The notes under the pieces are model-generated. The model saw only the letters and a list, made by a program, of their open reading frames with translations, had not been told where the DNA came from and searched no databases. DNA of 38,551 nt. It comes from an uncultured Gemmatimonadota bacterium. GTDB lineage: Bacteria; Gemmatimonadota; Gemmatimonadetes; Gemmatimonadales; Gemmatimonadaceae. How positions within the stretch are numbered: position 1 is the first letter of the stretch; the number at the start of each line of letters is the position of its first letter. This document shows, piece by piece, positions 17,284-22,347 of this stretch. The stretch covers positions 1 to 38,551 of the forward strand of contig CAIUOO010000025.1 in assembly GCA_903900795.1 (NCBI GenBank), in the 5' to 3' direction. A program made the position numbers and the translations under genes.

Positions 17284-17910
17284 CTAGCTGGCTCGTCGGA
17301 TCGGTGTCGCGTTATCGGGGAGATCGGCGCTGCGACCGCAGGTCACACAGAAACGCCAGTTCACGTCGAGCTCAGTGCTGCACGCCGGACACTGCCGCTT
17401 GGTCATGTCCATGCCACAGTGCGGGCAGAAGGTCATGCGGCGGTGCTCCGGCAGGCGATTCCCGCAGTACCGACAGCCGCAGGGTTTGGTCTCAGCCTTG
17501 ACTCCACCCGTCTGGCTTCCGATCGCGGTCGCCGGCGGGGTCGCCATTCGCTCCGTGCCGACGGTGGTTGCCTGTTGGGCCAACGTCAGCGAGGTCGTGG
17601 CCCAGGCCCGTACCAACGACATCGACGGGGACGGTGACGCGAGGGCCTGCGTGCAGGCGGTCTGCAGCTCGGACTCGGTCTCGAGGTAGCCACGCTCGCC
17701 AGCGATGAGTCGGAGGACCGCTCGTTCAAAGGCGTCGGCACCGCCGTCCGCCATTTCCCGGCGCACGTCGCGAAAGGGCAGCAGCCGTTCCTCGAGATCG
17801 GTGAGCGTGAAGCCCTGCGTCAGGAGATGCGGGTACTGGGTGCGAACGGTGCGTGAGAGGCGGAAGGCGAGACGATCGAGATCGTCCAGCGAGCGTGACA
17901 CGACGCTCAC
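17284..17910 (-). CDS. Double zinc-ribbon protein, unknown function
   Basis: A 208-residue protein. The N-terminal ~110 residues are helical and soluble. The C-terminal part holds two zinc ribbons: CGCRYCGNRLP with FCPHCG (about 144-165), and CPACSTELD with FCVTCG (about 174-194). A Ser/Thr/Ala/Pro linker lies between. Such double ribbons usually mediate protein or nucleic-acid contacts. The start is GTG at 17910, which overlaps the stop of the small membrane protein gene (GTGA), so translation is coupled. No enzymatic motif is seen. Confidence 0.8.
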   Translation of the reverse strand: MSVVSRSLDDLDRLAFRLSRTVRTQYPHLLTQGFTLTDLEERLLPFRDVRREMADGGADAFERAVLRLIAGERGYLETESELQTACTQALASPSPSMSLVRAWATTSLTLAQQATTVGTERMATPPATAIGSQTGGVKAETKPCGCRYCGNRLPEHRRMTFCPHCGMDMTKRQCPACSTELDVNWRFCVTCGRSADLPDNATPIRRAS

Positions 17911-18089
17911 TTGCTGTCCGCCGCCTGAAAACGCCTGTCGACGTCGTTTCCCATGCGCTCACGCGTCTCGCCACCGATGCGATCAAGGACTCGCTCGGCC
18001 ACGTGCTTTGTGTTCGCTTGCGCGTCCTTCCAGCCATAGCCGTATCCCATGGCTACGCCGACCGCGAGGATGACTAGATACTTGAGCAT
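17907..18089 (-). CDS. Small single-pass membrane protein
   Basis: A 60-residue protein starting at ATG 18089: a hydrophobic N-terminal segment (MLKYLVILAVGVAMGYGYGW) followed by a charged helical tail rich in Arg, Asp and Glu. It looks like an N-terminally anchored membrane peptide with a short cytosolic or periplasmic helix. An in-frame codon 8 residues upstream is less likely. Its stop overlaps the GTG start of the zinc-ribbon gene, so the two are coupled and may act together at the membrane. Unknown family. Confidence 0.68.
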   Translation of the reverse strand: MLKYLVILAVGVAMGYGYGWKDAQANTKHVAERVLDRIGGETRERMGNDVDRRFQAADSK

Positions 18090-18129
18090 GAGCGTCCGGA
18101 GGTGGCCCGGCACTCGTGCGCCGGCGTCC

Positions 18130-18768
18130 TTACGTCATTCGACGCGCAGTCTTGGCCGCGGGTAACGCGGGAGCAGGGGCAAAGGCGTCCGGCGCGGGAA
18201 ATGGTGACAGTGGAGCCCGCTTGGTGTTGGCCCGAACCGGCTGTGCGGCCCACCACTCCTCGAACGACGACGCGACGAGGCCATCCGATCGGTCCTGCAC
18301 CGCGGCTGCCCGCGTGGCCAGATGATTGGCGTACTCGTTCTGCGGATGGCCGGCGTGCCCCTTCACCCACGCCCACTGGGTCTCGTGCATCGCCACGGCA
18401 TCGACCGCCGCCTGCCACAGCTCCACGTTCTCGACCGGCCCCTGAGCGCGCTTCCAGCCCCGCGCCATCCACCCGCGCACCCACGACGTCATCCCGTCCA
18501 CGATGTAGCGCGAATCCGTCGTGAAGAGCACCGAGAGCGGATTCCCCTTCCGCGACATCGCCTGATAGCTGTCGATCACCGACCGCAGCGCCATCCGGTT
18601 GTTCGTGGTATCCGGTTCCGACGCCCAGAGGTCGAAGCGCTGCACCGCCCCATCGGCCCGTCGGAACTCGATCAACGCGCCCAACCCACCGGGGGTATCG
18701 CCACTCTTGCCATTACCGAGACAGGATTCGTCGGCGAACACCGCGACCAGGGGATACTGTGCGCTCAC
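18130..18768 (-). CDS. RNase HI-like protein with altered active site
   Basis: A 212-residue protein with an RNase HI fold over the first ~155 residues and an Ala/Pro-rich tail. Aligned by eye to E. coli RNase HI: Asp10 is kept (Asp13, in FADESCLGN), Asp70 is kept (Asp85, TTDSRY) and His124 is kept (His138, KGHAGHP). But Glu48 becomes Ala60 (TTNNRMAL instead of TTNNRMEL) and Asp134 becomes Asn148 (NEYANHLA instead of NERCDELA). Gly11 is replaced by Glu14. RNase HI cuts the RNA of RNA/DNA hybrids; activity here may be reduced, use another metal, or be lost. The GTG start overlaps the stop of the small upstream gene. A PGGLGALIEF region has a short insertion before it. Confidence 0.88.
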   Translation of the reverse strand: MSAQYPLVAVFADESCLGNGKSGDTPGGLGALIEFRRADGAVQRFDLWASEPDTTNNRMALRSVIDSYQAMSRKGNPLSVLFTTDSRYIVDGMTSWVRGWMARGWKRAQGPVENVELWQAAVDAVAMHETQWAWVKGHAGHPQNEYANHLATRAAAVQDRSDGLVASSFEEWWAAQPVRANTKRAPLSPFPAPDAFAPAPALPAAKTARRMT

Positions 18769-18980
18769 TTCACGATCTCCATGCCGTCCAGTTCATCGAT
18801 GTAGATCTCGAGCAGGCTGCCGGTACTCGGATGACGTGCCACGATCAGCTCACGGCCGTCCTGTAGCCGGAGCCGCTCGGGGATCACGAGGAACTCGGTT
18901 CCGCGCCGATACAGCTGAAGGCGGGTGCCATTGGTAATGGCGCGCTCGAGTTTGTCGTACTGGAGGACAGAGAGATGCAT
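18765..18980 (-). CDS. Small conserved-looking protein, unknown
   Basis: A 71-residue soluble protein, mostly predicted strand, with a basic first half (TRLQLYRRGTEFLVIPERL) and an acidic end (IYIDELDGMEIVK). It starts at ATG 18980 and its TGA overlaps the GTG start of the RNase HI-like gene (GTGA), which implies coupled translation. No known family is recognised. Its coupling to an RNase HI-like protein with a changed active site makes it a candidate partner, but nothing in the sequence shows an interaction. Confidence 0.65.
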   Translation of the reverse strand: MHLSVLQYDKLERAITNGTRLQLYRRGTEFLVIPERLRLQDGRELIVARHPSTGSLLEIYIDELDGMEIVK

Positions 18981-21184: not shown

Positions 21185-22066
21185 CTACTTCTTCTTCTTG
21201 GCCGGCGCCTTTTTGGCAGGAGCTTTGGCCGCCGGCTTCGCGGGTGCCTTGGCTGGTGCCTTGGCTGGTGCCTTGGCCGGTGCCTTGACCGGTGCCTTGG
21301 CCGGTGCCTTGGCCGGTGCCTTGGCCGGTGCCTTGGCCGGTGCCTTGGCCGGTGCCTTGGCCGGTGCCTTGACCGGTGCCTTGACCGGGGCCTTGACCGG
21401 GGCCTTGACCGGGGCCTTGACCGGGGCCTTGGCTGGGGCCTTGGCCGCCGGCTTGGCTTCGACCTTGACCTCGGCCTTCGGCGCCGGCTTAGCCAGGACG
21501 GGTGCCTCGACCACCTCGACGTGCGGAGCGGGCGGCTTCGGCGGCGCCTTTGGAGCAATCGGCGCGTAGGTGACCTTGTCCGACGGCTTCTGCGGCTCAA
21601 TGCGCATGGCGGCCCGCGCTTCAAGTGCCGCTTCGGCGGCGGCGGCGGGCGCCGTCACGGCCTTGGGCAGCTGGCCGAGCGGTACCGGCTTGGGAGGCGG
21701 CGCTTTCGGTCCGGGAATCGGCAAGGAGCCGTGCTTCGCGATGTACGCGGCTTCAGCCTGCTGAATCAGCACGTCGGCTTCCTCCTGTCCCATCTGGCCG
21801 CGGCGAACCATGTAGTTGATCAGGTCGCGCGCGCTCTCAATCGCAAAGGCGCTGAATCCAGCCGCCGCTCCGATGACCTCACGCATGGCGCCGGCCATTT
21901 TGCTCCCGGCTTCCAAGCTGATCTCGTGCGCGCGCTGCGCCATTTCGGCCGCCGTGTCGCGTGCGTCTGCAGCCCGATGCCCAGGGCCACGGCGCGGAGC
22001 CGGACTGGCAGGAGGTGCGTCACCTTCGGTGATCGTGTCGTCGTCTGCCTGCGGCAAATCGGCCAT
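21185..22066 (-). CDS. Lys-Ala-Pro repeat protein with phasin-like helical domain
   Basis: A 293-residue protein in three parts. An acidic/Pro start (1-30) precedes a long amphipathic helical region (about 33-110) ending YMVRRGQMGQEEADVLIQQ, a pattern seen in phasin-like coiled coils. A Pro/Ala linker follows. The C-terminal ~90 residues consist of 17 KAPA/KAPV tetrapeptides and a lysine cluster. Such tails resemble histone H1 and the PhaF-type phasin tail and would bind DNA or another polyanion. The start ATG 22066 (MADLPQ) is preferred over a codon 28 residues upstream, which would add a Cys/Trp/His-rich segment of unlike composition. It heads the GHMP kinase-M20 unit. Function is inferred only. 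Confidence 0.75.
   Translation of the reverse strand: MADLPQADDDTITEGDAPPASPAPRRGPGHRAADARDTAAEMAQRAHEISLEAGSKMAGAMREVIGAAAGFSAFAIESARDLINYMVRRGQMGQEEADVLIQQAEAAYIAKHGSLPIPGPKAPPPKPVPLGQLPKAVTAPAAAAEAALEARAAMRIEPQKPSDKVTYAPIAPKAPPKPPAPHVEVVEAPVLAKPAPKAEVKVEAKPAAKAPAKAPVKAPVKAPVKAPVKAPVKAPAKAPAKAPAKAPAKAPAKAPAKAPVKAPAKAPAKAPAKAPAKPAAKAPAKKAPAKKKK
21239..21446. repeat. 12-bp tandem repeat encoding KAPA/KAPV units
   Basis: About 17 copies of a 12-base unit (plus strand GCCTTGGCCGGT and variants with TTGACC or GGGG) encode the Lys-Ala-Pro-Ala/Val array. From the N-terminal side the order is one A-type unit, five V-type, six A-type, one V-type and four A-type. Blocks of identical units point to recent slippage or unequal exchange. 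The opposite strand is also open across this tract, which is a by-product of the repeat. Confidence 0.9.
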
Positions 22067-22347
22067 GGGTCGAACGCACTCCTTCCGCCAGCAATGGAGG
22101 TAGAGGTGGTCGCCCGACTTTTCTACGGAGGGGTACTGCTCAGGCCTCAATAGTAGGGTCCACGCCCACCAGAACGGGGGTAACTATATGATTTTCAGTG
22201 ATCTATGCAAGGTATATGGACGTGATTTGCGAGGGGAACCGCATATTATTAACCGAACAAGTCGTCCTCGGCATCGTCGTCGCTATAGCCGCTCCGTCCA
22301 GAGGCCACCCTTATTTCGATACTTAATCAAGTCATCATAAGAACATC
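22067..22347. other. AT-rich gap with a possible gene remnant
   Basis: A 281-bp gap, markedly more AT-rich from about 22180 to 22347 than the rest of the window. On the minus strand 22326-22249 reads as a protein C-terminus, VASGRSGYSDDDAEDDLFG then TAA; a TGA at 22327-22329 cuts the frame off upstream. On the plus strand, 22188-22340 is a 50-codon open frame starting ATGATTTTC behind GGGGG and ending 7 bases before the CoA-transferase. Its basic RPRHRRRY stretch is simply the antisense of the acidic tail. No promoter could be fixed with confidence. Confidence 0.45.
22249..22326 (-). pseudogene. Possible C-terminal remnant ending in an acidic tail
   Basis: The minus-strand frame from 22326 encodes LSIEIRVASGRSG, then YSDDDAEDDLFG and a TAA stop. 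The acidic DDDAEDDLFG ending looks like a genuine protein C-terminus, and the upstream frame is closed by TGA after only 26 codons. It could be the left-over end of a deleted gene, a tiny GTG-started peptide (22308), or chance. The parent family is not recognised. Confidence 0.25.

Follow-up and report, generated by a model that had tools for sequence, protein, structure and literature searches.

A type 1 RNase H of the LC9 type, with a probably relocated active-site glutamate, in an uncultured Gemmatimonadota bacterium

INTRODUCTION

The question raised by this locus is whether an RNase HI that lacks two of the four canonical carboxylates (D10-E48-D70-D134 in E. coli numbering) can still be an ordinary enzyme. 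The window, a stretch of 38,551 nucleotides from the genome of an uncultured Gemmatimonadota bacterium, contains one such gene. A first-pass annotation of this DNA read the protein as having lost two catalytic residues, and proposed either altered metal use or binding of RNA/DNA hybrids without cutting. Here we compare the protein with solved structures and with its relatives, and conclude that a single carboxylate has truly been lost (Asp134, replaced by Asn), while the other has very probably moved.

RESULTS

The gene encodes a type 1 RNase H

The features discussed are collected in Table 1. The rnhA reading frame starts with GTG and encodes 212 amino acids. The protein matches the Pfam RNase_H profile (PF00075) with E = 3e-28 and 99.2 bits, well above the curated cut-off of 25.8 bits, which places it in the RNase HI family, and this is its sole Pfam match at E values up to 0.1. 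The AlphaFold2 model, made with 125 aligned sequences as input, has a pLDDT of 91.8 and superimposes on E. coli RNase HI with Z of about 20 over 145 residues, as expected for an RNase H1 fold. The protein differs from the E. coli enzyme in having a few more residues after the CLGN motif, and a C-terminal extension at approximately residues 160–212.

Table 1. Features of the rnhA locus and codons of the active-site positions (window coordinates)
Feature	Position	Strand	Basis or remark
rnhA, type 1 RNase H (RNase HI), LC9 type	18130..18768	-	PF00075, phmmer 4ibn, AlphaFold2, VIA-align
s71, 71-residue protein, predicted Sm-like barrel	18765..18980	-	no Pfam match; AlphaFold2; conserved upstream of rnhA
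Asp13 (aligned with E. coli D10) and the probably relocated Glu14 (with G11)	18727..18732	-	Glu14 in 102/102 Ala60 relatives; model strand 7–16
Ala60, codon GCG, aligned with E. coli Glu48	18589..18591	-	start of model helix 56–74
Asp85 (E. coli D70)	18514..18516	-	invariant
His138 (E. coli H124)	18355..18357	-	invariant
Asn148, codon AAT, at the place of E. coli Asp134	18325..18327	-	Asn, Asp or His in relatives

The alignment to E. coli RNase HI given in the first-pass annotation is right in every residue and coordinate: Asp10, Asp70 and His124 are kept as Asp13, Asp85 and His138, while Gly11 is replaced by Glu14, Glu48 by Ala60 and Asp134 by Asn148. These letters are not a product of chance: they are found again in relatives with identities as low as about 45%. 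The protein is not a canonical DEDD RNase HI, since it carries Ala60 and Asn148 and scores 133.4 bits against the NCBIfam equivalog for RNase HI (NF001236), below its cut-off of 160.

No match was found between the rnhA product and the RNase H2 profile (PF01351). The genome's one match to that profile lies elsewhere (C1:3909-4451) and is a normal rnhB. The first-pass annotation had also asked whether the genome holds another rnhA or rnhB: in this assembly (G000, 93.9% complete) the only PF00075 match found is the present gene.

Downstream of rnhA, on the same strand (17284-18113), are genes for a 68-residue protein whose N-terminal stretch is hydrophobic and for a 208-residue double zinc-ribbon protein, and both also adjoin rnhA in close relatives. 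Further away (21185-22150, minus strand) is a gene for a 321-residue protein whose long tail of KAPAKAPVKAPAK repeats resembles that of histone H1; the other frames of this gene contain long spurious open reading frames.

The closest solved structure has the same active site

The best match among solved structures is LC9-RNase H1 (4ibn), found by phmmer with E = 3.4e-76 over residues 5–209 at 58% identity. VIA-align superimposes our model on 4ibn with Z = 30.0 over 203 residues and an rmsd of 2.3. The two proteins are identical in their six active-site letters (D-E-A-D-H-N), and they share the motifs ADESC, TTNNRMALR and NEYANHLA as well as the C-terminal extension. They differ in that LC9-RNase H1 comes from a metagenome with no named host, and otherwise by ordinary sequence divergence. 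We define the residues of the LC9 (DEDN) type as an adjacent Asp-Glu on strand 1, a non-acidic residue at the Glu48 position, the Asp70 position kept, and Asn at the Asp134 position. The present protein has all of these (D13, E14, A60, D85, N148), together with the fold and C-terminal extension of 4ibn.

The abstract of the LC9 study reportedly concludes, from mutational analysis, that the second glutamate has moved from helix A to strand 1, beside the first aspartate, much as in RNase H2. The enzymatic properties are said to be similar to those of an ordinary RNase H1. The PDB entry 4ibn is entitled ‘Crystal structure of LC9-RNase H1, a type 1 RNase H with the type 2 active-site motif’, and the title of the corresponding paper speaks of an ‘atypical DEDN active site motif’ (Nguyen et al., FEBS Lett. 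2013, 587:1418-1423; cited in PMC4423430). The variant is thus already explained by LC9-RNase H1, known from its 2013 crystal structure, and the gene is largely ordinary. That the present gene has its home in a Gemmatimonas-type genome suggests a source for LC9 itself. Our literature search found no paper tying Gemmatimonadetes to RNase HI.

The comparison with RNase H2 (RNase HII, rnhB) is limited to the active site. Both have an adjacent Asp-Glu on the first strand, and the rnhB of this genome reads VDEVGRG, but RNase H2 belongs to a different family (PF01351) with a different substrate range, and rnhB is a separate gene.

Glutamate and alanine exchange together, while the fourth position varies

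An alignment was made of 125 distinct RNases HI. Every one of them has Asp13, Asp85 and His138. At positions 14 and 60, 102 proteins carry Glu and Ala and the other 23 carry Gly and Glu, and no protein has a mixed pair. This perfect exchange, together with 4ibn, supports the suggestion made in the first-pass annotation that Glu14 might supply a carboxylate.

In a tree computed without the motif columns, the Glu/Ala proteins form one side of a branch with SH-aLRT 98, although the placement of three canonical sequences (L154, L155 and L156) is unsure because two long branches meet there. All the Glu/Ala proteins come from the phylum of the window or from records titled Gemmatimonadota, except for one (L090) titled ‘uncultured bacterium’. 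Similar variants had been suspected in other bacteria, and they do exist, within Gemmatimonadota.

The fourth carboxylate position (134) behaves differently. In the Glu/Ala background it is Asn in 72 proteins, Asp in 27 and His in 3. The best tree has some 12 to 14 changes at this position, of which the starred branches force at least four. A homologue tree had been proposed for proteins keeping both Ala60 and Asn148; Ala60 does mark a single clade, but Asn148 varies within it. From the single-branch split and the repeated changes at 134, it appears that the glutamate was relocated once and that position 134 has been free to vary since. Three viral RNases HI of the canonical kind (L198, L237 and L234) have Asn134 too, so this residue does not strictly depend on the glutamate having moved. 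Given these and the crystallised E. coli mutants D134N (1kvc) and D134H (1kvb), Asn or His at this position is a known state.

The LC9 type is almost phylum-wide

Of 395 genomes searched in the phylum, 376 have a PF00075 match and 333 have codons for TTNNRMA. A reversed control of the TTNNRMA pattern gave no hits; the strict pattern misses variants such as TTNNKMA and TTNQRMA. Another class of the phylum (f11), and two families of the same class (f8 and f10), have a different, canonical short RNase H, with the motifs TDGxxxGN and NNxAEY readable for most genomes. Family f5 includes three genomes whose RNase HI is of the canonical Gly-Glu kind (L154 1480-1890, L155 1504-1914, L156 1486-1899) and carries a Cys/His-rich segment at its N-terminus. 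These three genomes yielded no LC9-type copy, which suggests that there the LC9 type has been replaced by the canonical one.

The pattern was not found in RNases H of the other phyla searched. In the phylum of a Sphingomonas record, TTNNRMA codons occur in 2 of 299 genomes, both by chance and not in an RNase H, and in that of a Myxococcaceae record they occur in none of 193.

A small protein is coupled to rnhA

The gene immediately upstream of rnhA encodes an unannotated protein of 71 residues, here called s71. Its stop codon TGA (18767-18765) overlaps the GTG start of rnhA (18768-18766) as GTGA, so the translational coupling proposed earlier is real. Relatives of s71 are immediately upstream of rnhA across the Gemmatimonadaceae-like loci, and in some loci of the sister family they are upstream at a similar or larger distance.

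AlphaFold2 predicts a helix and five strands for s71 (pLDDT 94.5). The structures that this model resembles most are Hfq (Z of about 10, 60 residues aligned) and, with Z of 9.5–9.9 over 69–71 residues, the WYL domains of CapW, DriD and BrxR. Assignment of s71 as Hfq or WYL was rejected: the window's copy has no match in Pfam and no sequence match in the PDB, and WYL, the commonest weak Pfam match among relatives, is found in 6 of 39 with a best E of 0.006. Comparison of the s71 profile with those of the two WYL domains of its own genome gave a probability of 1%. The Hfq-family profile (PF17209) has no match in this 93.9% complete genome. Two WYL-domain regulators adjoin one another on contig C68 of the same genome.

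Judged from its model, s71 is predicted to be a small conserved stand-alone protein of Sm fold (Hfq/WYL-like), perhaps a stand-alone WYL-like domain. Any role with RNase HI is speculative. It is rather improbable that s71 is a functional partner of the enzyme, for example an Sm/WYL-like domain that binds nucleic acid and brings hybrids or RNA to the enzyme; as such, it would stand in for the hybrid-binding domain carried by some RNases H1.

DISCUSSION

We consider that the rnhA product is an LC9-type RNase HI with the active site D13-E14-D85-N148 plus His138, in which the glutamate has been relocated (probability approximately 0.93). The glutamate usually found on helix A (Glu48) would be shifted to strand 1, beside the first aspartate, in the arrangement seen in RNase H2, with Asn in place of the fourth carboxylate, a replacement tolerated in the Glu/Ala clade. 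Glu14 very probably substitutes for Glu48, as happens in RNase H2. By means of this one displaced residue the full catalytic role is very probably kept, and we infer that Glu14 binds metal and that the protein cuts hybrids with Mg. Since Asp13, Glu14, Asp85 and His138 are invariant within the clade, the best reading is that this RNase HI has an ordinary housekeeping role and that its metal site is rearranged, its activity and metal preference being predictions.

An enzyme that is active but prefers Mn to Mg, because of the Asn at Asp134 and the glutamate being elsewhere, is an unlikely alternative with some precedent in E. coli: the mutants E48A (1wse) and E48A/D134N (1wsg) have crystal structures with Mn, and the title of Tsunaka et al. 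(2005) describes Mn activation of E. coli RNase HI lacking Glu48 and/or Asp134. Those mutants, however, have no compensating Glu at position 11, whereas here Glu14 invariably accompanies Ala60. The reported similarity of the LC9 enzyme to ordinary RNase H1 also argues against a change of metal. The further step, to a protein without catalytic activity that holds RNA/DNA hybrids but leaves them uncut, is suggested by the non-acidic residues at two of the four canonical carboxylate positions, but is very improbable. The four residues Asp, Glu, Asp and His are invariant in all 102 relatives of the Glu/Ala clade, no other PF00075 gene was found in the genome, and the closest relative, 4ibn, has been presented as an RNase H1 whose motif is atypical rather than as an inactive protein. 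The structure of 4ibn and the invariant residues thus disfavour both an altered and a dead enzyme, and with them the idea of a crippled protein put forward in the first-pass annotation.

Phages often carry RNase HI genes (996 phage records match), which could point to a viral or recent horizontal origin of the variant. This is scarcely credible: the 82 RNase H loci read from viruses or phages never have Glu at position 11, and where readable they have the Gly and Glu pair. Moreover, the Glu/Ala type is one clade (SH-aLRT 98) found almost throughout the class, and the neighbouring genes are conserved in relatives of the window.

The LC9-type reading corrects a tempting misreading, namely that two catalytic residues have been lost, when one has very probably moved. 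What is modestly new is that the type is a single clade, almost phylum-wide, with repeated change between Asp, Asn and His at the fourth position; this pattern and the predicted fold of s71 are small additions to what is known. In almost an entire bacterial class, the LC9 type is the form of RNase HI usually present. The carboxylates that RNase H needs are still argued over, between one-metal and two-metal models. The clade offers a natural series, with Asp, Asn or His at the fourth position and the relocated glutamate fixed, on which the need for these carboxylates could be tested.
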